A DNA stretch of 64,000 nucleotides, taken from Bradyrhizobium sp. 186. Lineage in GTDB: Bacteria > Pseudomonadota > Alphaproteobacteria > Rhizobiales > Xanthobacteraceae. The position numbers and the translations under genes are program-made. The stretch is from positions 2,480,001 through 2,544,000 of the forward strand of contig NZ_CP082164.1 of NCBI RefSeq assembly GCF_023101685.1. The letters run 5' to 3'. The notes beneath the pieces were generated by a model, which was not told where the DNA came from, searched no databases, and worked only from the letters and a program-made list of their open reading frames with translations. Of the stretch, positions 478 through 60,400 are shown in pieces. Positions within the stretch are counted from its first letter, which is position 1. The number at the start of each line of letters is the position of its first letter.

Positions 478-882
478 ATGAATAGTTACACTTATGCGCG
501 CGCCCTCCAGGTTGCGCTGATCGGCATTGCCGTGACCGGGTCGGCGACGCTCGCACGCGCTGACATCAAAGACTATGAGTTCCAGCTGGTTGATAAGTCC
601 GTCAAGAAGGGCGACGCCGTCATCTCGGTCCGTCTTGTCCACAAGCCCGACGGCAAGCCGGTCCCCGATGCGGTGATCTTCGCCAAGAGACTCGATATGG
701 CGCCGGACGGCATGGAGACGATGAAGACAACGATCGAGCCCATGCCCAGCACCGAACCTGGAATCTATAAGTTCAAGGCTGAGGTGACGATGGAGGGCGG
801 CTGGCGGTTGTCCCTGGCCGCCAAAGTCCAGGGCGAAACCGGCACGGTCGAGAATAAACTCGTTATCAAGGCGACGCCGTGA
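478..882 (+). CDS. FixH/YtkA-like periplasmic protein
   Basis: A 134-residue exported protein with an N-terminal signal peptide (cleavage likely after ATLARA) and a small beta-sandwich body of the FixH/YtkA-like type. Seen in the sequence: the pattern VRLVHKPDGKPVPDAVIF and a Met-rich middle (RLDMAPDGMETMKTT), which could bind copper. I chose the ATG at 478 over the in-frame TTG at 472 because GAGG at 467-470 is correctly spaced for it. The stop overlaps the next start (GTGA at 879-882), so it is translationally coupled to the TolC gene. Proteins of this type often accompany Cu/Ag RND efflux genes; the exact role is not known to me. Confidence 0.7.
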   Translation: MNSYTYARALQVALIGIAVTGSATLARADIKDYEFQLVDKSVKKGDAVISVRLVHKPDGKPVPDAVIFAKRLDMAPDGMETMKTTIEPMPSTEPGIYKFKAEVTMEGGWRLSLAAKVQGETGTVENKLVIKATP

Positions 883-2123
883 TCCGCTCTGTCGAAATCA
901 CCCGGCTCGCCGCAGTCGGAGCAACGATAGCCATGCTGTGGCTCTCCCTGGCGGCGGCTAGTGAGCAGACCATGCCCGGGGCGACGGTGGAAAGCGTTGT
1001 CGCAATTGCCAAGCGCCTCAATCCCACGGTGGCGGCAGCCTCGCTCGAATTCGATGCGGCGGTCCACAAGATTGGAACGGCCGGCGTGTTGGCCGATCCG
1101 ACCCTCATTCTCGAGGCGTGGGACGTCAACCGGCAAGGCGTGGGGCAGCGTCGCATCGGCCTTGAACAAGAAATCAAGCTGTGGGGCAAATACGGCCTCG
1201 AGCGCAATGTCGCGCAGGCTGAAGCCGACGCTGCAAAATTCCAGGGCCGCGCAACAGTTATCGATCTGATTGCGCAAGTCGTCGCCGCGCATGGCGAATA
1301 CAACGCTGCCTATGAAGCCGTCACAATCGCCGTTGAAATCAAGCGGCGCTATGACGAGCTACTCAGCCTGTTGCGGTCGCGATACGGCACAACGTCGGTC
1401 GATCAGCAGGACGTCATCAAGGCCGAGATCGAAGCGGCCACCGCCGAGGGCGATGTCATCCGCCGGCAAGGCGAACAGAAAGCTGCGGCGGCCCGGCTGA
1501 ATGCTCTGATCGGTCGTCCTTCCCTAGCTTCCTTGGCGGCGCCAACCGGCTTTCGGGCCGTCAAAGCAACCAGCCTCGCGCAGGTGCAGGCGCTCGCACG
1601 CTCCGCGAACCCGATGCTGGCGCTGGCCGGAGCGCAGAGCAATTCCGCGGCCCAAACCAAATCGCTAACCGATCTCAACTACTATCCCGACGTGACGCTC
1701 GGCGCCAAATACGTGCAACGGCCCGGCACGGAAGATACCGGCGAGTTCATGCTGGGCGTCAAGCTGCCGCTCCACTATGAGGTCAAGGATGCCGAGCAAC
1801 GTGCGGCAGGTGCGCGGCTTGGCGCTGCGCAAGCCCGCAACGAGGCGCTGCGGCTGCGGGTCGATGGACAGGTCGCCGACGCCTGGTTCGGCGTCGATGC
1901 GCTGCGCAAGGTCGTGCAGATCTATGCATCGCGCCAACTGCCACCGGCCCGCTCTTCGGTCGACAACGCGCGGAACGGCTTTCAGGCGGGTACGTCCGAC
2001 CTTTCTTCCGTTTTCGAATCGGAGCGAAGGCTTCGCGCCATACAACTCGATTTGCTGAAGCTCAAGGTGGAGCTGCAGACGAAATACGCGGAGATGGAAC
2101 GTTTGGCAGGGGGCGCCCTATGA
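879..2123 (+). CDS. TolC-family outer-membrane efflux protein (CusC/CzcC type)
   Basis: A 414-residue protein with a signal peptide (LAAVGATIAMLWLSLAAAS) and two repeated TolC-like halves rich in Ala, Gln and Arg coiled-coil helices. It would form the outer-membrane channel of the tripartite heavy-metal efflux pump made with the CusB and CusA products downstream. Start is GTG at 879, overlapping the previous stop by four bases. The gene ends with codons for EMERLAGGAL; a degenerate copy of this 3' end is found again just before cusB, see the direct repeat entry. Length is normal for the CusC/CzcC family. Confidence 0.85.
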   Translation: MIRSVEITRLAAVGATIAMLWLSLAAASEQTMPGATVESVVAIAKRLNPTVAAASLEFDAAVHKIGTAGVLADPTLILEAWDVNRQGVGQRRIGLEQEIKLWGKYGLERNVAQAEADAAKFQGRATVIDLIAQVVAAHGEYNAAYEAVTIAVEIKRRYDELLSLLRSRYGTTSVDQQDVIKAEIEAATAEGDVIRRQGEQKAAAARLNALIGRPSLASLAAPTGFRAVKATSLAQVQALARSANPMLALAGAQSNSAAQTKSLTDLNYYPDVTLGAKYVQRPGTEDTGEFMLGVKLPLHYEVKDAEQRAAGARLGAAQARNEALRLRVDGQVADAWFGVDALRKVVQIYASRQLPPARSSVDNARNGFQAGTSDLSSVFESERRLRAIQLDLLKLKVELQTKYAEMERLAGGAL

Positions 2124-2289
2124 AACGAACCCATGGGGCGTCTTCACGTCGGCGTGAGCGCGTAACCGGTCGCCGCTTTGTTCCGAACTCATTCAGGAAG
2201 CGCCAAATGATGCACGTCTCGTGCGCAAGCGCCTGCCAGATTCAAACGCGCTGAGATGGAACGCTTGGCGGGAGATTTGCTATGAGACG
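2091..2289 (+). repeat. Imperfect direct repeats (about 37 bp) flanking a promoter cassette
   Basis: Positions 2091-2127 (3' end of the TolC gene) and 2253-2289 (leader and start of cusB) are about 75% identical. Both contain gagatggaacg, ttggc and ctatga. The second copy reads as the last codons of a TolC-like gene running into the cusB ATG. Between the copies lies a sigma-dependent promoter. The arrangement suggests that a promoter segment was inserted with duplication of the ancestral tolC/cusB junction. Confidence 0.65.
2144..2187 (+). promoter_or_regulatory. SigF/EcfF-type ECF promoter with upstream dyad, before cusB
   Basis: GTAACC (2162-2167), 16-bp spacer, CGAA (2184-2187). This matches the promoter pattern known for Caulobacter SigF, whose homologue is encoded in this window. 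Upstream is an inverted repeat TCACG (2144-2148) and CGTGA (2153-2157), four bases from the -35. The promoter is placed to drive cusBA separately from the tolC gene. Confidence 0.8.
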
Positions 2290-3709
2290 GCTAGTAGCCG
2301 CTTTCCTGATTGTGTTCGTGATTCTGGCCGCCGGAGCGGCGGGATTGGTCGTCGGTCGCTCGAACGGTCCGCTTCCCGGCTGGCTTGATGCTGTTCTGCC
2401 GACCGCAAAACAGGGACCAGCTCAGCCGGAACCTACGGGGCCCGTCATCTACTACCGTGATCCGGATGGCCGGCCAGAGTATTCGCCGACGCCGAAGAGG
2501 ACTTCGGCGGGCAAGGACTATCTCGCAGTTCGCGCCAGCGAAGACGTGAGTTTCGAGGAAAAGACACCCGAAACGATGACCGCGAAGGGCGGGAATCCAG
2601 GCAAAATCCGCTACTACCGTAATCCGATGGGCTTGCCTGACACCTCGCCGACTCCGAAGAAGGATTCGATGGGGATGGACTATCTGCCCGTCTACGAGGG
2701 GGAGGAGGACGATTCGTCGGTCAAGGTCAGCGCCGGCAAATTGCAAAAAGCTGGTGTTCAGACCGAGATCGCCGAGCGCCGTACCCTGAATACGGTTGTT
2801 CGCGCGCCGGGCACCGTTCAGGAGGACGAGCGCCGCAAAGCGGTTGTGTCGCTGCGGTTCGAAGCTTTCATTGACCGCGTCGAAAACGTTACCACCGGCT
2901 CGCACGTCCACAAGGGCGAGCGGCTGATGCGCGTCTACGGCCCGAACCTATCGAGCGCCGCCGCCGAATATCTTTCGGCGCTCAATGCCCGCCCCGACGC
3001 GGGCATCAGCAATCAAGCATTAAAAGGGGCGCGGCGTCGTCTTGAAAACCTCGATGCGCCGGAAACGTTTATTGCCGACCTCGAGCGCACCCGCGAAATA
3101 CCGACATATGTGAACTGGCCAGCCCCTCAGGACGGCGAGATCATCGAGCGTACGGCAGTAAACGGCATGCGCGCGGCGCCCGGCGATGTTCTGTTCCGGA
3201 TCGCGGATCACCAGGTCGTATGGGTGTTGGTCGACATAGCGGAACGCGACCTCTCCCTGGTCGAGGTCGGACAAAAGGCGAGCGTCCGGCTTCGCGCCTA
3301 TCCCGACCGTGTTTTCACTGGGAAGGTCGCGTTGATTTACCCACACCTGATGGCGGAGACACGAACCGGACGCGTCAGGATCGAATTGCCTAACCCGGAC
3401 GAAGTGCTGCGGCCCGACATGTACGCCGACGTTGAGATCTCAACTGGTGCAGAGGCTCCGGTCGTGACCGTCTCCAGCAGCGCGGTCATCGACAGTGGCG
3501 AGCGGCAGATTGTCCTGATCGATAAAGGCGAAGGGCGTTTCGAGCCGCGCGCGGTGAAGCTCGGCCGGCGCGGCGCTGGTTTCGTCGAGATCAAGGAAGG
3601 GATCGCCGAGAACGACAAGGTCGTCGTCTCCGCGAACTTCCTGATTGACGCCGAAAGCAATCTCAAAGCGGCGCTCAAGGGCCTGGATTCCGGGGAGAAA
3701 CCGCAATGA
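2282..3709 (+). CDS. cusB: Heavy-metal RND efflux periplasmic adaptor (CusB family)
   Basis: A 475-residue membrane-fusion protein linking the inner-membrane pump CusA to the outer-membrane channel. An N-terminal membrane anchor (residues 4-25) is followed by two heavy-metal-binding-domain repeats at about 55-83 and 109-138. The second keeps its methionines (NPMG, SMGMDYLP) while the first has lost them (DPDG, SAGKDYL). The rest shows the barrel-sandwich, alpha-hairpin and beta-barrel arrangement of CusB (VSLRFEAFIDRVENVTTGSHV, DIAERDLSLVEVGQ, RTGRVRIELPNPDEVLRPDMYA). ATG at 2282 has GGGAG upstream. The stop overlaps the cusA ATG by four bases (ATGA), so the two are coupled. Confidence 0.9.
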   Translation: MRRLVAAFLIVFVILAAGAAGLVVGRSNGPLPGWLDAVLPTAKQGPAQPEPTGPVIYYRDPDGRPEYSPTPKRTSAGKDYLAVRASEDVSFEEKTPETMTAKGGNPGKIRYYRNPMGLPDTSPTPKKDSMGMDYLPVYEGEEDDSSVKVSAGKLQKAGVQTEIAERRTLNTVVRAPGTVQEDERRKAVVSLRFEAFIDRVENVTTGSHVHKGERLMRVYGPNLSSAAAEYLSALNARPDAGISNQALKGARRRLENLDAPETFIADLERTREIPTYVNWPAPQDGEIIERTAVNGMRAAPGDVLFRIADHQVVWVLVDIAERDLSLVEVGQKASVRLRAYPDRVFTGKVALIYPHLMAETRTGRVRIELPNPDEVLRPDMYADVEISTGAEAPVVTVSSSAVIDSGERQIVLIDKGEGRFEPRAVKLGRRGAGFVEIKEGIAENDKVVVSANFLIDAESNLKAALKGLDSGEKPQ

Positions 3710-6700
3710 TCGCGCGGCTCATCGACTGGTCGGCTCGCAACGTGATGCTGGTCCTGATCGGCGTCGTGTTCGCTGTGGCCGCCGGCGTTTACGCTCTGAA
3801 AAACTCGGCCCTAGACGCGATACCCGATCTCTCCGACACCCAGGTCATCATCTACACCGACTACAAGGGCCAGGCACCTCAGGTCATCGAGGATCAGGTG
3901 ACCTATCCGCTGACGACCGCCATGCTCACCGTGCCAAAATCGAAGGTGGTGCGCGGGTTTTCCTTCTTCGGCGTCTCATTCGTCTACATCATCTTCGAGG
4001 ATGGCACCGATATCTACTGGGCCCGCTCGCGTGTTCTCGAATATCTCAATGCGGCTGCGCGAAGACTCCCGGCGGGTGTGACGCCGACCCTGGGGCCGGA
4101 TGCCACCGGCGTCGGCTGGGTCTATCAGTATGCGCTGCAGTCCAAGGACAAATCGCTGGCCGACCTCAGGTCCCTGCAGGACTGGACCATCCGCTACGGC
4201 ATTGCCAAGGCGGAAGGCGTCGCCGAGGTGGCAAGCGTCGGCGGCTTCGTCAGGCAATACAACATCATCCTGGACCCGAACCGGTTGCGCTCGCTCGGCA
4301 TTCCGCTTGCGAAAGTGCGCGATGCCGTCCGCGGCAGCAACATGGATGTTGGCGGACGAACTGTAGAGTTGTCGGAATTTGAATTTGTCGTACGCGGCCG
4401 TGGCTACGTCAAAAGCGTTTCGGACCTATCGAATGTCGTGCTGAAAGTCGAAAAGGGCACCCCGGTGTTGCTCAAGGACGTCGCGCGCATCGAGCTCGGA
4501 CCGGACGAGCGCCGGGGCATCACCGAGCTCAACGGGGAGGGCGAGGTCGCCAGCGGCATTGCACTGCAACGTTTTGGCCAGAATGCGCTCAATGTCATCG
4601 ACAATGTGAAGGCCCGGCTCGCTGATATGGCATCGGCCCTGCCTAAGGGCGTCGAAATCATCCCGGTCTATGACCGCTCGAACCTCATCTACAACGCGAT
4701 CGAGACCCTGAAGCGGACCCTTACGGAAGAGAGCATCATCGTTGCGCTGGTCTGTATCGTGTTCCTGCTGCATGTGCGCAGTGCTCTTGTCGCGATCGTG
4801 ATGCTACCGGTTGGAATCCTGATGGCGTTCGCCGCCATGAAAGCACTCGGCATCGGTTCGAACATCATGAGCCTTGGCGGTATCGCGATTGCGATCGGCG
4901 CCATGATCGACGGCGCCATCGTCATGATCGAGAACGCGCACAAACACCTTGAACGTGCGCCGACCGACAAGCCGCGCCTCGAAGTCCTGATCGAGGCGGC
5001 GAGCGAGGTCGGTCCGGCGCTGTTTTTCAGCCTGCTGATCATCACCGTGTCGTTCCTGCCGATCTTCACCATGGAATCGCAGGAGGGACGCCTCTTCAGC
5101 CCGCTTGCCTATACAAAGACGTTCTCGATGGCAGCGGCGGCGATTCTGTCGATCACCCTGGTTCCGGTCCTGATGGTGTTGTTCATCCGCGGCAAGATCA
5201 TTCCGGAGCACAAGAACCCCATCAATCGGTTCCTGATCTGGGTGTATCGGCCGCTGATCCAGGGCGTGTTGAAAGCCAAGACGCTGACCATCTTTCTTGC
5301 GCTTGTCGCCCTGGCGGTCAGCCTCTGGCCGGCCCGGCAACTCGGGACCGAGTTCATGCCGAGCCTGAATGAAGGCACGTTGATGTACATGCCGACGACG
5401 CTCCCGGGCTTGTCAGTGACCAAGGCTGCAGAGATTCTGCAGACGCAGAACAAGATCATCAAGACCGTTCCCGAAGTCGAGTCGGTCTATGGAAAGGCCG
5501 GACGGGCCGAGACCGCGACCGATCCGGCCCCCACCGAGATGTTTGAGACCGTGGTCAATCTCAAACCGAAGCAGCAGTGGCGTCCGGGCCTGACGGTCGA
5601 CGGCCTGATCGCCGAGCTTGATAAAGCGCTACAGTTTCCCGGCGTCTCCAATGCCTGGACCATGCCGATCAAGGCGCGCACCGACATGCTCGCGACTGGA
5701 ATCCGCACCCCGGTCGGCATCAAGGTCATCGGTAAAGACCTCACGGAGATGGAGAAGCTGGCACGGCAAATCGAAAGCGCGGTCAAGGCGGTGCCGGGCA
5801 CCTCGAGCGCTTACGCGGAACGTGTCATCGGCGGCTATTATCTGGACATCACACCGGACCGGGAAGCGCTTGCACGCTACGGTCTGATGGTCAGCGACGT
5901 ACAAGACACGGTTTCGTCCGCCCTTGGTGGCGAAACGATCACGACGACTGTAGAAGGTCGAGAGCGTTATGGCGTCAATCTGCGCTATCCGCGCGATCTC
6001 CGTAGCGATCCCCAATCGATCGCCCGAGACGTGTTGGTGGCCATGCCGGGCGGCGGGACGGTGCCGCTGGGTGAGGTCGCCGCCATCAAGCTGACGCGCG
6101 GGCCAACCACGATCCGCACCGAGAACGGCCAGCTCGCAGTGTACATTTTCGTGGACATCCGCGACCGCGATCTCGGTAGCTACGTGGCCGACGCCAAGGC
6201 GGCCGTGGCCGCCAGCGTGCAGTTTCCGCCGGGAAATTATGTCGTCTGGAGCGGCCAGTTCGAGTACCTGGAGCGCGCCACCGCGCGATTGAAGATCGTA
6301 GTGCCCGTGACGCTGCTGATCATCTTCTTGTTGCTCTACCTCAATTTCCGGCGGCTGACCGAAACGCTGATCGTGATGCTCTCGCTTCCGTTCGCGCTGG
6401 TCGGCGGCCTCTGGCTGATGTGGTGGCTCAGCTTCAACATGTCGGTCGCGGTGGCCGTGGGCTTCATTGCGCTCGCAGGCGTCGCCGCGGAGACCGGCGT
6501 CGTCATGCTGATCTATCTCGATCAGGCCATGAAGGAGCTTCACGCCGAGAGGGCCGCGGAAGGTAGGCCGTTCACGCGAGCGGACTTGAACGAGGCTATC
6601 ATGCTCGGCGCGGTCGAGCGTGTCAGGCCGAAGATGATGACGGTCGTCGCCATCATGGCCGGCCTCATTCCGATCATGTGGAGCACCGGCACCGGCTCGG

Positions 6701-6903
6701 AAGTCATGCAGCGGATTGCGGTGCCGATGATCGGCGGCATGATCTCGTCGACCATTTTGACGCTGGTCGTGATCCCGGCGGTCTACGCGTTGATCAAGGG
6801 ACTTGGGTTGCCGCGCAAACCGAATGCGGCAGTTGCAGTGGAAAAGGGCAGTCAGGAACAGAGTGCATCAAGTGCCGTGCACCGTTCGCAAGCGGCGGAA
6901 TGA
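3706..6903 (+). CDS. cusA: CusA-type heavy-metal RND efflux pump
   Basis: A 1065-residue inner-membrane proton-driven pump of the HME-RND family, normal length. The N-terminus (MIARLIDWSARNVMLVL, SALDAIPDLSDTQVII) and the TM4 motif AIGAMIDGAIVMIENAHK are typical. The stretch PIKARTDMLATGIRTPVGIK matches the Cu(I)/Ag(I) CusA subgroup rather than CzcA, so copper or silver export is the likely function. It is known of CusA that methionine pairs pass the metal through the periplasmic domain; Met residues are present in the corresponding region (TMPIKARTDML). Twelve TM helices are expected in two groups, around 15-35 with 340-560, and 860-1040. Coupled to cusB; followed after 37 bp by an XRE regulator. 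Confidence 0.93.
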   Translation: MIARLIDWSARNVMLVLIGVVFAVAAGVYALKNSALDAIPDLSDTQVIIYTDYKGQAPQVIEDQVTYPLTTAMLTVPKSKVVRGFSFFGVSFVYIIFEDGTDIYWARSRVLEYLNAAARRLPAGVTPTLGPDATGVGWVYQYALQSKDKSLADLRSLQDWTIRYGIAKAEGVAEVASVGGFVRQYNIILDPNRLRSLGIPLAKVRDAVRGSNMDVGGRTVELSEFEFVVRGRGYVKSVSDLSNVVLKVEKGTPVLLKDVARIELGPDERRGITELNGEGEVASGIALQRFGQNALNVIDNVKARLADMASALPKGVEIIPVYDRSNLIYNAIETLKRTLTEESIIVALVCIVFLLHVRSALVAIVMLPVGILMAFAAMKALGIGSNIMSLGGIAIAIGAMIDGAIVMIENAHKHLERAPTDKPRLEVLIEAASEVGPALFFSLLIITVSFLPIFTMESQEGRLFSPLAYTKTFSMAAAAILSITLVPVLMVLFIRGKIIPEHKNPINRFLIWVYRPLIQGVLKAKTLTIFLALVALAVSLWPARQLGTEFMPSLNEGTLMYMPTTLPGLSVTKAAEILQTQNKIIKTVPEVESVYGKAGRAETATDPAPTEMFETVVNLKPKQQWRPGLTVDGLIAELDKALQFPGVSNAWTMPIKARTDMLATGIRTPVGIKVIGKDLTEMEKLARQIESAVKAVPGTSSAYAERVIGGYYLDITPDREALARYGLMVSDVQDTVSSALGGETITTTVEGRERYGVNLRYPRDLRSDPQSIARDVLVAMPGGGTVPLGEVAAIKLTRGPTTIRTENGQLAVYIFVDIRDRDLGSYVADAKAAVAASVQFPPGNYVVWSGQFEYLERATARLKIVVPVTLLIIFLLLYLNFRRLTETLIVMLSLPFALVGGLWLMWWLSFNMSVAVAVGFIALAGVAAETGVVMLIYLDQAMKELHAERAAEGRPFTRADLNEAIMLGAVERVRPKMMTVVAIMAGLIPIMWSTGTGSEVMQRIAVPMIGGMISSTILTLVVIPAVYALIKGLGLPRKPNAAVAVEKGSQEQSASSAVHRSQAAE

Positions 6904-6940
6904 ATGAAGGCGCAAAGATCCTCGGCACCAGGGCAATGTT

Positions 6941-7432
6941 ATGGATCAGTGGGACTTCAAGAAGTGGCGAAAAAAGCTAGGCATCAATCAAGTTGCGGCA
7001 GGAGAAATGCTCGGGCTCAGTCGCGGCGCGGTTCAAAATTGGGAGAACGAAATCCGACCGGTGCCGCGTTCCGTCGAGCTTGCCTGCCTGGAATTGTTGC
7101 GACGTTGGAAGCAGCGGCCGGAGTTTGGGCCCGTGACGCTGCTTTATGCCGATGGTCCGGTTTTGCAGGCGGATACTATTCCCCATAGCGATCTGGTCCT
7201 TCGGTGCGAACCCCATCCGGACAACGAAAGCGCAGTTAGTCGCGTCGCTCGACTGAGAGAAAGCTTGAATTTGCATATGGCATTCATCGCGGAAGACGAT
7301 GGAACGGTCATTTGGTCATGTCCCGAATTGCTGCAAGAATGCGATGCGAGGGAAAGGGGGTACAGCCGGCGAACGGAAATTGAGGCACCGATCAGCACTG
7401 GCGGACGTTCTCGGAGGGGACATCGCCCCTAA
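6941..7432 (+). CDS. XRE-type helix-turn-helix regulator
   Basis: A 163-residue protein whose N-terminal 45 residues (WRKKLGINQVAAGEMLGLS, RGAVQNWE) form a Cro/CI-type HTH. The C-terminal part (residues 60-130) is of unknown function. It has a paralogue at 9217-9684 with about 60% visible identity, whose start codon appears lost. Located between cusA and the sigma gene on the same strand, so it may regulate this cluster; no binding site is evident. The C-terminal tail (SRRTEIEAPISTGGRSRRGHRP) is basic. The ribosome-binding site is weak. Regulator assignment is firm, its target is not known. Confidence 0.75.
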   Translation: MDQWDFKKWRKKLGINQVAAGEMLGLSRGAVQNWENEIRPVPRSVELACLELLRRWKQRPEFGPVTLLYADGPVLQADTIPHSDLVLRCEPHPDNESAVSRVARLRESLNLHMAFIAEDDGTVIWSCPELLQECDARERGYSRRTEIEAPISTGGRSRRGHRP

Positions 7433-7472
7433 TAGGGACGATGAAATTTTTTTACCAATAAGAATCGCCGGT

Positions 7473-7498
7473 GTAACCGAAACCGCTTCGGCGACGAA
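7473..7498 (+). promoter_or_regulatory. SigF/EcfF-type promoter before the sigma gene (autoregulation)
   Basis: GTAACC (7473-7478), 16-bp spacer, CGAA (7495-7498), exactly the pattern of the three other copies in the window. It lies 18 bp before the GTG start of the ECF sigma gene, implying positive autoregulation and a very short leader. Unlike the other three it lacks the TCACG-N4-CGTGA dyad. Confidence 0.8.
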
Positions 7499-7516
7499 TA
7501 ATAGGAATGACGCCCG

Positions 7517-8071
7517 GTGACGACCAGCGAAGCGGAACTCAAGGCGCTGATGCTTGCCAGCCTTGATGGCGAAGCAGCGTCATACCGGTTGCTGCTCGAC
7601 CGGCTAAGCAGCCGGTTGCGAGGCTATTACAAGGGCAAACTCGCCCGCGTTGGACGCGGCGCAACGGAAGCTGAAGATCTGGTGCAGGAGGTGTTGTTGG
7701 CCATTCATCTCAAGCGTCACACCTACGATGTCAGGGAGCCATTTACGCCCTGGGTGCATACAATTGCCCGGTACAAGCTGATCGATTATCTGCGCCGGAC
7801 GCGATCGTCCGCCAGCGTCCCGCTTGATGAGGGTACGGCGGTCATGGCGCAGGACGACAATGCGGATGCCGAGAGCTCCCACGACATCAGAAAGCTTCTG
7901 GAGCGGCTACCGGAAAAGGTGCGATGCTCCATTGAGTCCGTGAAACTTGAGGGGCGCAGCGTCGCCGAGGCGGCGGTGCGGTGCGGCATCTCGGAATCGG
8001 GCGTCAAGATCAACATTCACCGCGGGTTGCGGGTGCTGGCGACCCTCATCCGCGCAGGAGAGCAAAAATGA
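7517..8071 (+). CDS. ECF-type RNA polymerase sigma factor (SigF/EcfF class)
   Basis: A 184-residue group 4 sigma factor. Region 2 (EAEDLVQEVLLAIHLKRHTYD, PWVHTIARYKLIDYLRR) would bind core polymerase and the -10. Region 4 (SVAEAAVRCGISESGVKINIHRGL) would bind the -35. It is followed, with a four-base ATGA overlap, by a gene for an NrsF/DUF1109 anti-sigma factor, the arrangement of Caulobacter sigF-nrsF and Bradyrhizobium ecfF-osrA. Known members respond to chromate/cadmium or reactive oxygen or chlorine species. Start is GTG at 7517; the promoter just upstream indicates self-activation. The GTAACC-N16-CGAA sites near cusB and the YxGGPK genes are its probable targets. Confidence 0.9.
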   Translation: MTTSEAELKALMLASLDGEAASYRLLLDRLSSRLRGYYKGKLARVGRGATEAEDLVQEVLLAIHLKRHTYDVREPFTPWVHTIARYKLIDYLRRTRSSASVPLDEGTAVMAQDDNADAESSHDIRKLLERLPEKVRCSIESVKLEGRSVAEAAVRCGISESGVKINIHRGLRVLATLIRAGEQK

Positions 8072-8709
8072 AGACGGATGATCTCGTCGCCGTGCTCAGC
8101 ACAAACGTTGAACCTGTCCGCCGCGGACTGGTCGCCCGAACGATCTCCGTCGCCGTTGCCGCCGGCGCAGTCGTCGCGCTTGGCCTCGTGTTCGCCATTC
8201 TGGGCCTTCGCGCCGACCTCACGACGACCCGCGCCACGATTTTCCTGTTGTTGAAGGTTGCGTTCGCGCTTGCGGTGATCGGCGTCGCGATGCGCTATCT
8301 CTTGAGGCTGGCGCGTCCCGGCGCCGAACGCGGGATATCGCCGCTCAGCATCGCGTTGCCGTTTGCGGCCATCGCGCTACTCGGCGCCATCAGCCTCGGT
8401 TTCGCGCCAAACTCACACTGGGACAGGATGATACTCGGCGACGAATGGCTTGAGTGCCTGCTCTCGATCCCGATCATCGCCATCGTGCCTTTTGCTGTCA
8501 TCATTTTCGCGGTGCGAAGGGCTGCGCCTACCAACCTCGTTCGGACCGGCGCGGTTGCCGGTCTCATCGCGGGCGGCGTGAGCGCGGTGGCCTACGCTCT
8601 TCATTGCACCGATGATTCCTTGCCGTTCGTTGCGGTCTGGTATGGCGCCACAATTGTGCTGTGCACCTTAGCTGGTGCAGCATTGGGACCACGGCTCTTG
8701 CGTTGGTAA
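8068..8709 (+). CDS. NrsF/OsrA-type membrane anti-sigma factor (DUF1109)
   Basis: A 213-residue integral membrane protein with six predicted TM helices (about 28-48, 56-78, 92-112, 131-149, 158-178, 186-206). It has only three cysteines, and C130 (WLEC) and C180 (ALHC) fall at almost the same positions as the two cysteines known to be needed for stress sensing in Caulobacter NrsF (131, 181) and B. japonicum OsrA. The short cytoplasmic N-terminus would hold the sigma factor at the membrane until a metal or oxidant signal releases it. ATG at 8068 overlaps the sigma stop and has AGGAG at 8056-8060. Confidence 0.9.
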   Translation: MKTDDLVAVLSTNVEPVRRGLVARTISVAVAAGAVVALGLVFAILGLRADLTTTRATIFLLLKVAFALAVIGVAMRYLLRLARPGAERGISPLSIALPFAAIALLGAISLGFAPNSHWDRMILGDEWLECLLSIPIIAIVPFAVIIFAVRRAAPTNLVRTGAVAGLIAGGVSAVAYALHCTDDSLPFVAVWYGATIVLCTLAGAALGPRLLRW

Positions 8710-8728
8710 GGGACCCATCAGGTGGTTC

Positions 8729-8772
8729 TCACGTCAGCGTGAGCTTGTAACCGCCAGACGATTTGCTCCGAA
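8729..8772 (+). promoter_or_regulatory. SigF/EcfF-type promoter with upstream dyad, before first YxGGPK gene
   Basis: GTAACC (8747-8752), N16, CGAA (8769-8772), with dyad TCACG (8729-8733) and CGTGA (8738-8742) four bases upstream of the -35. Sequence identity with the copy at 11,494-11,537 continues downstream through the leader (cgcgcttcca, atgatggagccggaccatg). Confidence 0.8.
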
Positions 8773-8826
8773 CTCATTATCAGAAGCGCACACGATGCGC
8801 GCTTCCATCAATGATGGAGCCGGACC

Positions 8827-9084
8827 ATGTCAACGAAACACCTATTCGCGATTTCACTCATGCTGCCGCTGGTGGCGATACCTGCAACGGCCTACGCGGG
8901 CTCAACGATCACGGACAAGAGCTACTGGCCGAGTGAGGCCAGGAGGAGTGCGCAATACAGAACTGTTGGTTCGCCAAGCGATATTTTCGCGTACGAGCCG
9001 GCACGGTCACGTTTGCAGCCCGCGATGACCCCGAGCGGGGCTGGATCCGCCTGGCGTTATCAGGGCGGCCCGAAATCCCGCTAA
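8827..9084 (+). CDS. Small exported protein with C-terminal YQGGPK motif
   Basis: An 85-residue protein with a clear signal peptide (KHLFAISLMLPLVAIPATAYA) and a mature part of about 60 residues ending in WRYQGGPKSR. No family is known to me. The Y-x-G-G-P-K motif also ends the frameshifted gene at 11,590 and occurs twice in the protein at 16,887-17,123, so a family of small secreted proteins is present here. The SigF-type promoter directly upstream indicates induction with the efflux genes. The ATG follows atggagccggacc, a weak but conserved leader shared with the 11,590 copy. Confidence 0.7.
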   Translation: MSTKHLFAISLMLPLVAIPATAYAGSTITDKSYWPSEARRSAQYRTVGSPSDIFAYEPARSRLQPAMTPSGAGSAWRYQGGPKSR

Positions 9085-9216
9085 CGCCCGCCGCGCGATG
9101 GGCTTGCCATCGCCATAGCGCACAGGGTTGCGGGTGAGCATCGACCTCCGCAACCCCCTCACATTGGTGCCCGCCAAGACGAGCATCTTCCGCTGCCGCG
9201 GTCGTGGGACAACGCG

Positions 9217-9684
9217 ACGGACCTTTGGGGCTTCAAGAAGTGGCGACGGAAACTAGGATACACGCAGTCTGTCGCGGGAGAAAAGCTCGGGCTCAGTCGC
9301 GGCGCGGTTCAATATTGGGAAAGCGAGATCAGACCGGTGCCGGTTGCCGTGGAGCTTGCCTGTCAGGAGTTGTTGCATATCTGGAAGCAGCGACCGGAGT
9401 TCGGGCCAGTGATATTGATCTATGCCGGCGATCCGAACGCCCTGGAAGCGTCGTCGGCCGCCGGGAGCCTCCTCATGCAGTCGGAGCGACATCCAAACAA
9501 CGAAAGTGCCTTGAGACGAGCCGCTCGAGCTAGAGAGACCGCGAACCTCGTTGTCGCATTCATCGTGGAAGAGGACGGCAATGTTGTTTGGTCCGGAGCA
9601 GAACTGCTGCGCGAGATCGATGCCCGGAAAGACGCGACCGTCGGCGGAAAACCGTCCATCGCAAAAGCTCCACCATCAGCCTAG
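9217..9684 (+). pseudogene. XRE regulator paralogue with start codon lost (ACG)
   Basis: The reading frame from 9217 to the stop at 9684 encodes a close paralogue of the XRE regulator at 6941 (WGFKKWRRKLGYTQ, LGLSRGAVQYWE, RPEFGPV). The codon aligned to the paralogue's ATG is ACG (9217-9219), and no ATG, GTG or TTG occurs in frame upstream back to the stop at 9082-9084. The first standard start is GTG 9337, which would remove the whole HTH. Either the gene is dead, or it uses ACG, an ATT (9163) or CTG (9193). The intact remainder suggests a recent loss or unusual initiation. Confidence 0.6.
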
Positions 9685-10040
9685 CGAAAAACGTCAGACA
9701 CTCTGACCCGATCCACCGGGATTCTCCTCGGCTTCCCTGCTGAGGATCTTAGCTATTTGCTCAAGCGTCTGGGCGGCTTCTCAATGCCGCAGCGTTGGAT
9801 AGGCGTGTCTCGAATGCAACAGGCTGCAAAGATCGTAATAATTCCTCTTCGCCATGTACAATAAATCTGCATTTGCTGAAAAAGTGTCGAACCTTCGCCT
9901 TGCACCCTTGATGTGCGGCGCAATAAATTTGGCGCGGGTGTGATCGTGTCTTTTTTTGCCTGCAAAAAGTTGGGGCGTTCAAACGATCAGTGACGAAGGG
10001 CTCACTCAATGGCGAGGGCTCGTTCATGGCGGGGCTCACA
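9685..10040. other. Intergenic, leader region of the porin gene
   Basis: No convincing gene on either strand. The 70-codon minus-strand frame here has no signal of coding. The stretch is less GC-rich than its neighbours and probably holds the porin promoter; I see no GTAACC-N16-CGAA match. Confidence 0.4.
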
Positions 10041-11321
10041 ATGAAGAAGATCATCATATCTGCGGCAATGGCATTCGCCACTGTGACCGCCGCCAACGCG
10101 GCGGATATGCCGTTGAAGGCTGTCAAAGCGCCGCCGCCCATGCCGTCTTGGTGGGATACATTGACCATAACCGGCCACGTGGAAGTGGGCGGTTCGCTCA
10201 ACGGGAATGATCCCGCTGGCGGGAATTTTGGCCAGCTCTTTACCGACAAATCCAATTCTTTTTTCTTGAACCAGGCCTTGCTGACGGTGCAGCGGCCTCT
10301 CGATCCGAAAGCAACCGGATATGATTTCGGCTTCAAGTTCCAGGCGATGTATGGCTCGGACGCGCGCTACACGCACTTCTTGGGTGAGTTCGACCAATCG
10401 ATCAGCGACCGCAATCAGTTCGACATCGTCGAAGCGCACGCTCTGTTCCATCTGCCATGGCTTACTTCCGGCGGCGTAGACGTAAAGGTCGGACAGTACG
10501 TGACCCTGGAAGGCGCGGAAGTCATCTACGCACCTGACAATGCGCTGTACACGCATTCCTATATTTTCAATTTCGGCATTCCGTTCAAGCACACCGGTAT
10601 ATTGACGACGACGCACGTAAATCCAATGCTCGATATTTACTTAGGCGTAGACACGGGTGTGAACACGACCTTCGGCAATCACCTTGATTGCTTCAATTGC
10701 GGCGACAACAACAGGGCCGCGGCGTTCCATGGCGGTTTTGGCCTGAATTTGTTGGATGGCAAGCTAACCGTTTCGGCAACCACTCATATCGGCCCGGAAA
10801 ATCCGAATGTGACGCCTGTTGTACTTGCGGGCGTCGATCCCAATTCCGCTCTCCGTTATCTCAATGACGTCACCGTCATCTGGAAGCCAACCGACAAGCT
10901 CACCCTGACCACCGACATGAACTACATTCGCGATGATGGATTCAACGCGACGGGCTACGGTGTGGCGCAATATGCGACCTACGCGATCAACGATTGGCTT
11001 AAGATCACCGGACGCGGAGAGATCTGGCGCGACAATAACGGGTTCTTCGTTGCTTCATTCCCCGGCAATCTGGATTTCGTGCGGATTGAACATGGCAATC
11101 CATTGGGTATAGCGATCAGCGGCGGACCGACGACCTACGGTGCGCTGACCGTCGGACTTGCCATCAAGCCTCCCGTTCCGAAACAAATCGAAGGCCTCGT
11201 TATCAGGCCGGAGATTCGCTACGACGCATCCTTGAACAACACCACGCCATTCGGTGGCGGAACGAAGAGCTCGCAATGGACCTTTGCCAGCGACCTCATC
11301 ATACCCTTCACGATCAAATAG
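10041..11321 (+). CDS. Outer-membrane beta-barrel porin-like protein
   Basis: A 426-residue protein with a signal peptide (MKKIIISAAMAFATVTAANA, mature from ADMPLKA) and many alternating aromatic/polar strands ending in the typical barrel terminus (WTFASDLIIPFTIK). Motifs such as ITGHVEVGGSLN, DIVEAHALFHLP and VKVGQYVTLEGAEVIYAP match the BBP2/OprB-like porins common in rhizobia. It would sit in the outer membrane and pass small solutes; the substrate is unknown. I chose ATG 10041 because GGCGGGG at 10029-10035 serves as its ribosome site. A start at 10026 or 9990 would put extra residues before the signal peptide. Two Cys in one loop (DCFNCGDN) are notable for a porin. Confidence 0.8.
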   Translation: MKKIIISAAMAFATVTAANAADMPLKAVKAPPPMPSWWDTLTITGHVEVGGSLNGNDPAGGNFGQLFTDKSNSFFLNQALLTVQRPLDPKATGYDFGFKFQAMYGSDARYTHFLGEFDQSISDRNQFDIVEAHALFHLPWLTSGGVDVKVGQYVTLEGAEVIYAPDNALYTHSYIFNFGIPFKHTGILTTTHVNPMLDIYLGVDTGVNTTFGNHLDCFNCGDNNRAAAFHGGFGLNLLDGKLTVSATTHIGPENPNVTPVVLAGVDPNSALRYLNDVTVIWKPTDKLTLTTDMNYIRDDGFNATGYGVAQYATYAINDWLKITGRGEIWRDNNGFFVASFPGNLDFVRIEHGNPLGIAISGGPTTYGALTVGLAIKPPVPKQIEGLVIRPEIRYDASLNNTTPFGGGTKSSQWTFASDLIIPFTIK

Positions 11322-11493
11322 TGACCTCTATGCGATCGTCGAAATTTGCATTTGTTGGCGATCTATCGAAAAAAATTTTATAGCGTTGCGGAACGCGCTC
11401 GATGGGTGCGGGAAGTGCCGGGCGTGACCGCGCGTTGTGTTGCGCCTTCGCAGATGCAGCATTTGATCCGATGGCGGCAATGGCACTGCGGCT

Positions 11494-11537
11494 TCACGTC
11501 AGTGTGAGCCTGTAACCGCCGCACGATTTGCTCCGAA
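11494..11537 (+). promoter_or_regulatory. SigF/EcfF-type promoter with upstream dyad, before second YxGGPK gene
   Basis: GTAACC (11512-11517), N16, CGAA (11534-11537). Dyad TCACG (11494-11498) and TGTGA (11503-11507, one mismatch) four bases upstream of the -35. Nearly identical to the 8729-8772 copy over about 100 bp including the leader. Confidence 0.8.
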
Positions 11538-11589: not shown

Positions 11590-11845
11590 ATGTTAGCGAA
11601 ACACCTTCTCACGATTTCGACCCTTCTGCCGTTCGATGGCGATATCGAGCGCCGTCCACGCAGACCACAACTATCAACATCGGCCGAACCAGCCCGCCGG
11701 ATATGCCGCGTTTAATCAAGCCGGTCCTCCGCCGGATGCGCCCAATACGGCGTTGCAAGGACGCCCGTCGCTGCAACCGCGCAATTCGCGGAAGGCGTGC
11801 ACTTATCAAGGGGGACCGAAACCCAGCTTGTGGGCCTGTCGATAA
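11590..11845 (+). pseudogene. Frameshifted YxGGPK-family small exported protein
   Basis: From ATG 11590 the frame begins like the 8827 gene (MLAKHLLTISTLLPF versus MSTKHLFAISLMLPL) but soon leaves it. In the next frame from 11636 the sequence resumes as MAISSAVHADHNYQ, completing the signal peptide, and ends CTYQGGPKPSLWACR. One extra base near 11632-11636 explains this. The promoter and leader are intact. It is either a recent pseudogene or a sequencing error in a functional gene. Confidence 0.7.
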
Positions 11846-54499: not shown

Positions 54500-57400
54500 C
54501 TAGACGTGAAAGAAGTCCAGATTGGTCAAATTACCTGCTGTTACCGCTGTCAAGACGACTTCCATATCCGCCGAACCCTGGTTCTGAGCTACGGCTGAGC
54601 TATTAACGTAGACAAATGTGTCCGCGCCGCTCTGAATCCACGCGATACTATGCGCAGCGACCTGCGTGCTTCCGGCTATCAAGCCCTGGACTGTCGTGGC
54701 TCCAGCGATACCCGAAATGTCGATGAGGTCTGTCCCATGAACGAAATCACTGATGGTGTCATGGCTTACGACGGTCGACTCGGAAACGGCAGCGAAGACA
54801 AAGTGGTCGGCTCCAGCCCCTCCGATCAACGTGTCGGCGCCTCCTCGCCCCTGGATCACGTCATTTCCTGCTTGACCATCCAATGTGTTGTTGCCGGCAT
54901 CGCCGGAAATGACGTCGGCAAAAGCTGAGCCGCGGATAGCATTCACACCCGTAAAGGCATCAGTGCCGACGCCCGCGATATCGCCAGACGCGGTCCCGTG
55001 GGAGTTGTTAGCGGCGAGATCGACGGTCACCCCATCCAGAGCATTGTAGAAAGCGATGCGGGTGTTGCCGTTGCCGGTAATCGTGTCATTGCCGCCCATT
55101 CCCTCAAACTCGTTGAAGGTGGTGAAATCGCCGACGTTCGGCCCGGAGACGCCGAAATTGGTCGTGACATAGGTGTCTGCAAAGTTGGTCCCGCGGATGG
55201 CTTCAACCGATCGGAGGGTGTCTGTCCCGATGGCAGCGTCGCCGCTCACCACGCCCGAGGCCATATCGACTTGAATACCTGAAGCCGAGCCATCGTTATT
55301 GTAGAAAGCCCTGTCGAAGCCGCCTTTACCGTCGATGGAGTCGTTGCCGGCACGGCCGGCAAAATCTTCCGCCGTACCGTTAGGATTGGCGGAGCCGGTG
55401 ATGGTGTCGGCGAATGCCGAGCCCGACACCGATTCAACACCCGAGAAGGTGTCGGTGCCCACGGAGGTATCCCCGGTCACGGTGCCTGACCCGCCGCTGG
55501 TGGTGGAGGTCCAGCCACTGAAGGTGATCGTCACGGGGCCTGTTGCGTTGGTGTACATCAGACGCGTGTTGCCGTTGCCGGTGATGGTGTCGTCACCGCC
55601 AAGGCCCTCGAACTGGTTGAAGGTGCCGTTGTTGCCGACGTTGAGAGCGCCTGCGAGGCCGTATCCCGTCGCCACATAGGTGTCGGCAAGGATGGTCCCC
55701 TGGACAGCTTCGATCGAACGCAGCGTATCAGTGCCGATAGAGGAGTCACCGGTGGCTGTGCCGCTCGCCATGTCAATGGTGACGCTGCCGGTCGAAAGAT
55801 AGATGTTGTTGTAGCTTGCGGTATCAAAGCCGCCGCGACCGTCGATGGTGTCGTTGCCACCAAGCCCCGTAAATGTCTCGTTGATTCCGCTTCCTGACAG
55901 GGAATCGGTGAACATCGAGCCCATGATGGCATTGATACCCGTGATCGTATCGCTTCCGACCGAGGAATCTCCTGTGGCAGTGCCGGCGGCCAGGTCAACC
56001 ACGACGCCGGCGGTCGCATTGTTGAATCCGATGCGCGTGTTGCCGTTGCCGACGATGGTGTCGTTGCCGCCTTCGCCTGTGAACTCGTTGAAGGTTCCAA
56101 GCGAACCGGCGTTCGTGCTGCTGTCGCTGAACCCAACTGCATTGTAGGTATCGGCAAAATTGGTGCCCCGGACAGCTTCGACCGACACAAATGTATCGGT
56201 ACCGACCGTGGCGTCGCCCGTCACGCTGCCCGCCGCCAGATTGACGATAGTGCCCGATGTGGTGGTCGGATCGTTGTTGTAGTCGACGCGGTCGAAGCCG
56301 CCGCGACCATCGATCAGGTCATTGCCGGCAAATCCGGCAAATACCTCGACCGTGCCGAATGCATTGTTGCTTCCGGAAAGAGTATCCGCGAAGGAGGAGC
56401 CCCAGGCTGAAAGGATCCCCGGGCCAACAAAAGTGTCCTGACCGACTGATGCGTTGCCATTCGCGGTTCCCGCCGCGATGTCAACGATAACTCCTGCGGT
56501 CGCGCTCACATAGGAAACGCGCGTCAAGGCTGCGCCCAATGCGTTCACGGCACCTGTGATCGTGTCGTTGCCGCCCCTGCCTTCGAATTCGTTGAAACCA
56601 ACGGGGGTACCCGGCGTGCCGGTGGCGCCCGTAAAGCCGGCTGCATTGAATGTGTCCGCAAAATCGCTGCCAACTGCGCCTTCGATGCCAACGAGTGTAT
56701 CGGTGCCGACGCCGGGACCGGATGCCGTGCCGGCCGCGAGGTTGACGGTGATCCCACCCGTTGCATCGGTATAAACCGCGCGATCGAAATTGGTCCCACC
56801 ATCGAGCAGATCGTTGCCGCCGAATCCCTGAAGCCGATCATTTCCGGCAAGTCCGGAAATGGCATCCGCTTGGCTCGTTCCGAGCAGAACATCCGAACCC
56901 GAGGTGCCGTTTGTGGCGGTGGGCAGGACGAAGTCGCTCTGCTGGAGGCTCGTCACACCAATCAGCGTCAGGGTATTGCCGCTGCCGAAATCAATGATGG
57001 TATTGCCGCCGCTCACCGTTGCTTTCGATTGAACATCTGCAAACGTGAAGATGTTCGACATGCCTGTTAGATCGATCGTGTCGCCCTGGGTGCGGTCGAA
57101 GTCCGTGATGGTGTCCGCTCCGTCGCCGTTGGCGTAGACGAACGTGTCCGCACCGTTGCCCCCGGTCAGGGTATCGGCACCGGCGCGGCCGTCGAGCCGA
57201 TCGTTTCCGTCCCGCCCCTCAAGGGTGTTGGCATTGGCGTCGCCGAGAATGAGGTCGGCGAAAGATGAACCGCGGACGGCATTCACGCCGGTGAACGTAT
57301 CCGTGCCGACACTTGCGACGTCGCCAGCGGCCGTGCCGTGGGACGTGCCGGCGGCGAGATCGACCGTTATTCCATCCAGAGCATTGTAGAAAGCGATGCG

Positions 57401-60400
57401 GGTGTTACCGTTGCCAGTGATGGCGTCATCGCCCGCCATGCCCTCGAACTCGTTGAAGGTACCGAAATCGCCGGCATTTGCGCCGGAGACGCCGAAATTG
57501 GTCGCCACGTAAGCGTCGGCAAAGCTGGTCCCGCGGATCGCTTCAACCGATCGGAGGGTGTCTGTCCCGATGGCAGCATCGCCGGTCACCACACCCGAGG
57601 CCATATCGACTTGAATACCTGAGGCCGAGCCATCGTTATTGTAGAAAGCTCTGTCGAAACCAGTTTTACCGTCGATAAAGTCATTGCCGGCGCGGCCGGC
57701 AAAATCTTCCGCTGTACCATTAGGATTATTCGAGCCGGTGATGGTGTCGGCAAATGACGACCCCGACACCGAGCCGACATCCGAGAAGGTATCGGTGCCC
57801 ACCGACCCATCACCGGTTACGGTGCCAGACGCGCCGCTTGTGGTGCTGGTCCAGCTATTGAGACTGAAAGTGATCGTCACGGGACCGGTTGCATTGACGT
57901 AGGTCAGACGGGTGTTGCCATTGCCGACGATGACGTCGTTACCGCCCATTCCCTCAAATTGATTGAAGGTGCCGTTGTTGCCCACGTTGGCATAAGGAAC
58001 GCCGGTAGCAGGATCGATAGCCCCGGTGACGCCGAAATTAGTCGCATCATAGGTGTCGCTAAAATTAGTACCTTGAATGGCTTCGATTGAGCGCAAGGTG
58101 TCGGTGCCGCTTGAGACATCGCCGGTCACCGTTCCAGCTGCAAGATGAACACTGATCCCACCCGTCGTGAACGTTAGATTGGCATACTGCGCCGTGTCGA
58201 AGCCACCTTTTCCATCGATAAGATCATCGCCGGCAAGGCCCATGAAGTTTTCGTTGGCGCCGCTTCCCGAAAAGGTATCGGCAAACATCGACCCCATGAC
58301 GGCGTTGACGCCGCTGAATGTATCGGTGCCCACCGAGGCATCGCCAATCGCCGTGCCCGCGAGGAAATCGACCGTTACGCCGGCGCTCGATTGCGTATAT
58401 TGGAGTCGGGTGTTCCCGTTGCCGATAATAGTATCGTTGCCGCCCATGCCTTCAAAATTGTTGAAGATGCCGCTCGATCCCGCATTGGTGCTGGTGCCGC
58501 TGAAACCGGTGGAATCGAAAATATCAGCAAAGTTGGTGCCGCGGACGGCTTCCACTGAGCGCAGCGTGTCAGTGCCGATCGTAGCATCGCCAGTTACGGT
58601 TCCCGCTGCAAGATTGACGGCTATGCCCGTGGTTGTGGTGACATCGTTGTTATAGACAGCGAAATCGTAGCCGCCGCGGCCATCGATCAGATCGTTGCCG
58701 GCACGACCGTCATATTGCTCGAAAGTACCGTTGGGATTGTCGCTGCCCCGCAGCGCGTCGGCAAATGCTGACCCAATGACAGAATTGACGTTTGTGAAGG
58801 TGTCGTTGCCGACCGACGCATCGCCGCTCGCCGTACCCGCCAAATCAACGGTGACTGCCGCTGTCGCACTGGCATAGGAAATACGGGTCAGGATCTGTCC
58901 GGAAGGATTGACCGTGCCGACGATGATATCGTCTCCCCCCATGCCTTCGAAGCTGTTGAAGCCAATTGGCGTGCCGGGTATCCCGGAATTGCCGGTGAAG
59001 CCGACCGCCGAGTAGCGGTCGGCAAAGTTGCTGCCCTGAATGGCTTCGATACCGATCAGAGTGTCGGTGCCGACACCTGGACCCGTCACGGTCCCGGCCG
59101 CCAGATCGGCGGTGATGCCCCCGGTTGCGTCGACATAGACCGCTCGATCAACACCCGACAAGCCGTTGAATATGTCATTACCGCCGAAGCCCTCGAATGC
59201 ATCGTTCCCAGCGGTCCCTGTCAGGGCATTGTCGCCAGCGTCGCCGAAAATGGCGCCGGGCACGCCCACCAGATAGACCACTGCGCCGCTGGTGGCGGTG
59301 TTGCCGGCCGCATCGCTCACCCGTGCCGTCAGGGAGTTGCTGCCCTGGTTGAGCGTGACCGTGGTGGTCCAAGTCCCGTTGCCCTGCACGACCGCACTGC
59401 CGATCGCGGTGGTGCCGTCGAGAATGGTGACGGTGGCGCCGGCATCGGCCACGTCGACCGTGCCGGTGATGGTCTGGCTCGCCTGGTTGGTCGACCCGCC
59501 CGCGCTGGTGATCGCAACCGTCGGCGCCGCCGTGTCCAGCGTAAAGATCAGCGATGCGCTGCCGGTGTTGCCAAAGCTGTCCGTCTGGCTCGCCACGATG
59601 GTGTGCGACCCGTCGGCCAGCCCGCCCGGCGTGAACGACCACGCCCCTTGCGCATCGGTGGTGGCGGTCGCGGCCACCGCACTGCCGTCGATCGTGAAGT
59701 GCACCACCGTGTTGGCAAGCCCGGTGCCGTTCACGGCCGGGTTGGAGGTAACGTGGTCGGTGGCCGAACTGCCGGTGTCGGAGACCAGGCCTTCGGTCAC
59801 GGTCGGACCGGTGGTGCTGAGCGTATAGACCACTGCGCCGCTGGTGGCGGTGTTGCCGGCCGCATCGCTCACCCGTGCCGTCAGGGAGTTGCTGCCCTGG
59901 TTGAGCGTGACCGTGGTGGTCCAAGTCCCGTTGCCCTGCACGACCGCACTGCCGATCGCGGTGGTGCCGTCGAGAATGGTGACGGTGGCGCCGGCATCGG
60001 CCACGTCGACCGTGCCGGTGATGGTCTGGCTCGCCTGGTTGGTCGACCCGCCCGCGCTGGTGATCGCAACCGTCGGCGCCGCCGTGTCCAGCGTAAAGAT
60101 CAGCGATGCGCTGCCGGTGTTGCCAAAGCTGTCCGTCTGGCTCGCCACGATGGTGTGCGACCCGTCGGCCAGCCCGCCCGGCGTGAACGACCACGCCCCT
60201 TGCGCATCGGTGGTGGCGGTCGCGGCCACCGCACTGCCGTCGATCGTGAAGTGCACCACCGTGTTGGCAAGCCCGGTGCCGTTCACGGCCGGGTTGGAGG
60301 TAACGTGGTCGGTGGCCGAACTGCCGGTGTCGGAGACCAGGCCTTCGGTCACGGTCGGACCGGTGGTGCTGAGCGTATAGACCACTGCGCCGCTGGTGGC

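Follow-up and report, generated by a model that had tools for sequence, protein, structure and literature searches.

A distance-locked dyad beside SigF-type promoters in a predicted ECF16 regulon with Cus efflux genes of Bradyrhizobium sp. 186

Genes and SigF-type promoters of the cus-sigF-nrsF locus

A stretch of 64,000 nucleotides from Bradyrhizobium sp. 186 (contig NZ_CP082164.1, positions 2,480,001 to 2,544,000), here called the window, carries heavy-metal efflux genes of the Cus type next to an extracytoplasmic function (ECF) sigma factor of the SigF type, its anti-sigma factor NrsF and small secreted-type proteins named YxGGPK. The present analysis deals with the GTAACC-N16-CGAA promoters of these genes and with an inverted repeat, TCACG-N4-CGTGA (the dyad), which stands at a fixed distance from most of the target promoters.

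The CusCBA arrangement of an outer-membrane factor, a CusB-type and a CusA-type gene in a row was found on the plus strand. It consists of a cusC-type outer-membrane factor (879..2123; PF02321, 6.9e-30), the membrane-fusion protein gene cusB (2282..3709; PF16576, 1.5e-69) and cusA for a heavy-metal resistance-nodulation-division pump (3706..6903; TIGR00914, 1223.5 bits, cut-off 701). In the stretch that begins some 10 kb upstream of the window and runs to the cus genes, further copper-type genes were identified by Pfam (CusF, DUF411, YtkA), and multicopper oxidase-like and CopC-like genes by resemblance only.

The sigma gene (7517..8071, plus strand) encodes Sigma70_r2 and r4_2 domains and matches NF009191 with 288.8 bits (cut-off 171). 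Directly behind it lies nrsF (DUF1109; 8068..8709, plus strand; PF06532, 219.4 bits, cut-off 26.8). An earlier, sequence-only reading of this DNA had named a matching ECF sigma factor and NrsF anti-sigma factor, and both were borne out by Pfam; the NCBIfam NrsF equivalog model gave 101.7 bits, under its 300-bit cut-off. NrsF of the window contains Cys130, Cys180 and a third cysteine at position 199. According to the available portions of the two papers, the first two match the positions of the functional C131 and C181 of Caulobacter NrsF (PMC3511200) and of C129 and C179 of OsrA (PMC3420878). Seven hydropathy windows were obtained for NrsF, two of them overlapping, compared with the six membrane helices expected of an ECF16 anti-sigma factor. 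By its sequence the pair is a member of the known ECF16 (SigF/NrsF) kind. The genome encodes six NrsF proteins.

The first YxGGPK gene (8827..9084, plus strand) is an open reading frame of 85 aa without Pfam family. Its product has no cysteine and a sole histidine within the signal peptide, which makes direct copper binding doubtful. It was considered as a bufferin (DUF2282) precursor and rejected, as it shows neither a Pfam family nor a cysteine. The sequence-only reading had placed two YxGGPK genes behind promoters; the first is indeed intact, but the second copy is broken in the signal-peptide part. What remains open of it (11636..11845, plus strand) codes for 69 aa versus about 84 aa in the closest intact relatives, behind a near-perfect promoter. 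This copy belongs to a distinct YxGGPK branch with His residues right after the signal peptide. The family as a whole counts 758 relatives at E ≤ 0.001, and no Pfam domain was found among the 120 matches listed.

Four exact GTAACC-N16-CGAA sites had been reported at 2162, 7473, 8747 and 11512 and taken for a local regulon. Exactly four were recovered in the window, all on the plus strand: before cusBA (2162..2187), the sigma gene (7473..7498, an autopromoter without dyad), the first YxGGPK gene (8747..8772) and the second YxGGPK copy (11512..11537). CGAA lies 94 nt from the start of cusB, 18 nt from that of the sigma gene (GTG), 54 nt from that of YxGGPK 8827 and 98 nt from that of the surviving frame at 11636. 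Shuffles of the window predict 0.04 matches, and none of 100 shuffles reached four. The sites are therefore real, but the local cluster is larger than described: six sites lie within 14 kb, as two more were found just upstream of the window, and the dyad as a second element had been missed. One of the additional sites (C1:2477702, minus strand) lies 47 nt from the start of a CusF-family gene (PF11604, 1.5e-26), the other (C1:2478382) 229 nt from a methyltransferase-like gene (PF04191, 1.4e-06).

The genome-wide motif scan, which had been proposed as a check, revealed that the bare pattern is not specific: the 10.77 Mb genome contains 19 matches versus 15 for the reversed control, so that the motif letters alone are insufficient to define the regulon. 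Besides the six clustered sites, two further pairs were located at 5.80 and 7.48 Mb. In each pair, one site precedes the sigma gene of a paralogous sigma-nrsF operon and the other the YxGGPK gene that follows this operon. With these, the three sigF-nrsF loci contain ten sites in total. CGAA is followed by C or T in all ten NrsF-linked sites and by G or A in all nine remaining ones.

A position weight matrix (PWM) trained on the composites of dyad and promoter and on the ten NrsF-linked sites, hence partly on the sites being scored, gave 28.3 bits for the cusBA promoter, 32.9 bits for each YxGGPK promoter and 14.9 bits for the sigma autopromoter, the weakest of the ten. The best of six shuffled windows reached 12.7 bits. 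The autopromoter was outscored by two of the nine background sites of the genome (22.4 and 18.3 bits). A PWM scan of the window for extra sites found none above 8 bits.

With the motif masked, the promoter-leaders of the two YxGGPK genes in the window are near copies of each other (z 13.2), and the cusB promoter-leader resembles both (z 4.0 and 2.9). No similarity to these leaders was seen for the promoters of the CusF and methyltransferase-like genes. The DNA around three of the four window promoters is thus related, and the four matches cannot count as independent events. The stretch with the cusB promoter is flanked by two copies of the cusC-cusB junction (2087..2127 and 2249..2289, plus strand) sharing 31 of 41 letters, from which we infer that the promoter looks like a YxGGPK-type cassette inserted into this junction. 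Hairpins in the leaders behind the YxGGPK and cusB promoters were not clearly better than in shuffles (five leaders, z -0.5 to -1.6).

It is very improbable that the four matches arose by chance or by duplication and have no function, cusBA being read from another promoter. The near-equal genome-wide counts of 19 and 15, the related DNA of three sites and the low rank of the autopromoter would all fit such an explanation. Against it stand the 0.04 sites expected in the window, the clustering in three paralogous sigma loci, the base after CGAA (C or T in 10/10 linked sites, 0/9 others) and the recurrence of composites before cusB and cusF in other genomes (see below).

The dyad in the genome of Bradyrhizobium sp. 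186

In six of the ten promoters of the sigF-nrsF loci, the inverted repeat TCACG-N4-CGTGA is located exactly 4 nt before GTAACC. In the window it was found as an exact match before the cusB promoter (TCACGTCGGCGTGA, 2144..2157) and before the first YxGGPK promoter (TCACGTCAGCGTGA, 8729..8742), and with one mismatch before the second YxGGPK promoter (11494..11507), in all cases on the plus strand. The carriers are the promoters of the CusF gene, of cusB, of both YxGGPK copies in the window and of two paralogous YxGGPK genes, i.e. six of seven target promoters. A search of the genome for the composite with up to three mismatches returned these six, and the control none.

Exact dyads occur at 15 sites versus 4 in the control. 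Five of them belong to composites, one precedes a fourth sigma gene and one a bufferin-like gene. The adjoining context of the other eight contains no GTAAC-type motif, and by eye no regulator was seen in the largest surrounding frames.

At the fourth sigma-NrsF pair (C1:7120000-7127000) the dyad stands 16 nt before GTAACA, and the same spacing was observed in another genome of the genus. At the bufferin-like gene (C1:8263700-8266200), which matched the BufA2 model below cut-off, it lies 12 nt before GTAACG-N16-CGAA.

Composite promoters in other genomes

The GTDB species genomes were scanned for an exact dyad followed, after 0-12 nt, by GTAACC-N16-CGAA. The scan yielded 96 stretches with 109 matches in 104 unique contexts. 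Among the latter, the spacing was 4 nt in 82 cases and 5 nt in 14, the eleven other spacings together accounting for 8. The 96 sites with 4 or 5 nt (N4/N5 sites) have C or T after CGAA in 90 cases and display 39 different dyad centres. They were found in genera including Bradyrhizobium, Afipia, Nitrobacter, Tardiphaga, Microvirga, Devosia, Rhizobium, Paracoccus and Chelatococcus, and, judging by their titles, two of the source records are plasmids. With up to two mismatches the composite was detected in 34 of 146 genomes of the genus, own genome included; the control gave zero in all 146.

Comparison with seed sequences assigned the genes downstream of the 96 N4/N5 sites to YxGGPK (44), sigF (6), cusB (3), cusF (3), YtkA (2) and a small protein like that encoded at 28-384 of the window (1), leaving 37 sites without seed assignment. 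Part of the downstream frames of these 37 was scanned against families, which revealed DUF1223 proteins at two loci (L049, L122) and Met-rich proteins in Devosia, Rhizobium and Paracoccus; all four Met-rich proteins tested match the MXKDX-repeat model TIGR02953, two of them above cut-off. Small membrane proteins lie behind some composites. No Pfam family was obtained for four of them (L064, L066, L070, L083) and no NCBIfam family for three (L064, L066, L128); they may resemble DUF2933, a likeness which these scans did not confirm.

Over 93 composite loci, a sigF-like gene is present in 73, nrsF in 71 and cusA in 37. The stretches of five relatives (L244 to L248) were examined in detail. In L245 composites precede cusF-DUF411, a unit of a small gene (small28), YtkA, cusB and cusA, and a YxGGPK gene. 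In L244 a composite lies upstream of cusB, 376 nt before the aligned cusB start, and another, with one mismatch, before sigF. L246 has a composite with one mismatch before cusF and another before a YxGGPK gene, and in both L247 and L248 a YxGGPK gene is preceded by one. The sigF promoter carries the dyad in L244 and lacks it in L245 to L248. SigF-type promoters thus precede cusB or cusBA-containing units in relatives as well, at a position that differs with the cus cluster of each, which upholds the link between promoter and cusB drawn by the sequence-only reading. As related genomes place such promoters before cusB, cusF and YxGGPK genes, the regulon is well supported by comparison.

A record titled as a metagenome-assembled genome of Candidatus Obscuribacterales (L074) contains an N5 composite promoter and a YxGGPK-like small protein. 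Being assigned far from the Alphaproteobacteria, it reflects either gene transfer or mis-binning.

A test blind to the dyad started from NrsF, which 80 of the 385 genomes of the class scanned were seen to encode; the 29 loci returned outside the own genome were examined. They contain 41 GTAAC-type promoters, six of which have a dyad (up to one mismatch, within 25 nt) where 0.13 were expected, as against 69 of 20,000 random anchors. In four of these six cases the promoter stands before a DUF2282 (bufferin) gene, the dyad spacing being 4-5 nt. A DUF2282-like gene is present in 14 of the 29 loci, one of them without detected promoter.

In other genomes of the genus, dyads were also located 5 nt before GTAACG/A promoters with DsbD-TM-like and alpha/beta-hydrolase genes downstream, one assignment of each being confirmed by Pfam. 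The EcfF target bll1027 is named a cytochrome c biogenesis protein in the available text of PMC3420878, and on this ground the GTAACG/A promoters with dyad are probably of the EcfF type.

The dyad may belong to a plain SigF regulon without second regulator, being touched by RNA polymerase (sigma region 4 or the alpha subunit) or left over from promoter duplication. The dyad of the composites always adjoins the SigF-type -35 element, some bufferin promoters lack it, and the homologous YxGGPK promoters dominate the counts (44/96), all of which agrees with this explanation. Yet both dyad arms are kept while the 39 centres vary, as would fit a protein dimer; unrelated promoters share the dyad, spacings of 12 and 16-17 nt also exist, and at one Nitrobacter locus (L086) a single dyad is common to two divergent promoters with equal spacing to both. 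A plain SigF regulon is thus regarded as unlikely.

Two XRE-type helix-turn-helix (HTH) genes, 63% alike, flank the sigma-nrsF-YxGGPK unit. One lies between cusA and the sigma gene (6941..7432, plus strand; PF01381, 5.1e-07), the other at 9220-9633, and in L246 a composite precedes such a gene. The gene at 6941-7432 was rejected as a general dyad binder, as only 6 of the 22 genomes with composites, own genome included, have a homologue. Binders of the CRP/FNR, MerR and LysR types were also considered and dropped, their site architecture presumably being a different one.

A bound protein could also act as a repressor, the dyad then being the operator through which sigma-dependent transcription is blocked at low copper, not an activator site. 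A position next to the -35 element permits steric blocking, and the sigma autopromoters of the own genome are free of the dyad. A fixed spacing of 4-5 nt is nonetheless more typical of polymerase contact than of a block, and no repressor gene is regularly found beside the promoters, so that we hold a repressor to be improbable.

The literature searched contains no description of the dyad; figures were outside the text search, which makes this weak evidence of absence, and a published alignment may show the dyad unremarked. The dyad beside SigF-type promoters is apparently undescribed.

Elsewhere in the window, the minus strand contains an open frame of 3122 aa (54500-63868) with at least eight direct repeats at an exact spacing of 552 bp, 97-100% alike. 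The only Pfam match of its inner frame of 1536 aa is just under cut-off. It looks like a giant repeat protein, and the repeat run may extend past the window.

Two-input model and comparison with known systems

Taken together, an ECF16 (SigF/NrsF) envelope-stress regulon serving mainly for copper, with two-input promoters and a candidate dimeric regulator binding the dyad, is considered the probable reading of the locus. By analogy with relatives, in which this step has been shown, membrane-bound NrsF would hold the sigma factor through its two conserved cysteines until copper or an oxidant acts. Copper would free the sigma factor, which is predicted to read GTAACC-N16-CGAAY promoters (Y, C or T) of its own operon, of cusBA and of the genes for the CusF-type chaperone, the methyltransferase-like membrane protein and the YxGGPK proteins; motif and placement are observed, and transcription from them is expected. 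A candidate dimeric DNA-binding protein most likely occupies the dyad beside sigma region 4, so that output would depend on a second input.

The regulon announced by the sequence-only reading is well supported as a prediction, and the sigma factor may co-induce Cus efflux and YxGGPK genes. The new part is the distance-locked dyad: from the comparison of sequences, a large subset of the target promoters of ECF16 sigma factors shares it as a second, conserved element. Its presence beside most of the target promoters in the present genome suggests that a partner protein helps to control the response. The chances appear about evenly balanced that many alphaproteobacterial ECF16 target promoters are two-input, a putative dimeric regulator on TCACG-N4-CGTGA beside the -35 element cooperating with sigma and thereby separating targets (with dyad) from autoregulation (mostly without) in the copper, hypochlorite and peroxide branches.

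Several observations weigh against the two-input model. The bare GTAACC-N16-CGAA motif is hardly enriched genome-wide, and the dyad is absent from all three sigma autopromoters and from the methyltransferase promoter of the own genome. Of the 13 promoters before DUF2282-like genes in the dyad-blind loci, 7 lack the dyad and 6 have it (up to two mismatches, 4-5 nt). Many composites are copies of one another by homology, which keeps the counts from being independent events; the unrelated genes downstream carry more weight as an argument. No dyad binder was found, the adjacent HTH gene having been tested in the 22 composite-bearing genomes. Finally, the ECF16 member of S. meliloti is described, in the portion of the source available, as not responding to H2O2, Cd or chromate (PMC6180224).

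The common view of ECF sigma factors is that of one-signal switches under their anti-sigma factors, and a distance-locked second site would mean that two inputs are integrated at the target promoters. The dyad offers a bait for finding the missing regulator, and the composite a sharper motif for regulon prediction than GTAACC-N16-CGAA alone. SigF/NrsF would also gain a regulatory connection with Cus efflux and with the YxGGPK proteins, which are unstudied.

The comparisons with known systems given here follow the available parts of the cited papers. The closest is SigF-NrsF of Caulobacter crescentus, with an adjoining NrsF, two NrsF cysteines, GTAACC-N16-CGAA promoters and a copper response (PMC3511200; PMC8224329). 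That Caulobacter SigF uses this pattern, as stated by the sequence-only reading, agrees with PMC3511200. SigF and its regulon are induced by Cu and required for growth in copper, a sigF::Tn5 mutant being Cu-sensitive (PMC8224329), in line with the proposed copper link. In contrast to the present locus, Caulobacter SigF is described as controlling DUF2282/DUF692 (bufferin) operons and a sulfoxide reductase, and the text portions at hand contain no Cus efflux, YxGGPK or dyad (PMC3511200; PMC8224329).

NrsF and OsrA both restrain their sigma factor, two cysteines being needed (PMC3511200; PMC3420878). EcfF-OsrA of Bradyrhizobium japonicum, from the same genus, shares an ECF16 sigma factor with DUF1109 anti-sigma factor, cysteines 129/179 and autoregulation. 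It differs by its motif, GTAAC(g,a)-N14-15-(c,t)CG(t,a), by its response to H2O2 and by its targets, methionine sulfoxide reductases and a cytochrome c biogenesis protein; the dyad goes unmentioned in the text available (PMC3420878). BcrS-AbcS of Brucella melitensis is likewise an ECF16 sigma/anti-sigma pair, with TGTAAC/GCGAA promoter boxes, but responds to HOCl and controls bcrXQP, copper efflux being unmentioned in the excerpted text (PMC8315932). The locus further resembles bufferin clusters, in which sigma/NrsF genes stand beside copper-protective secreted small proteins (PMC12452194); YxGGPK 8827 differs from these bufferins in having no DUF2282 and no cysteine and belongs to another family.

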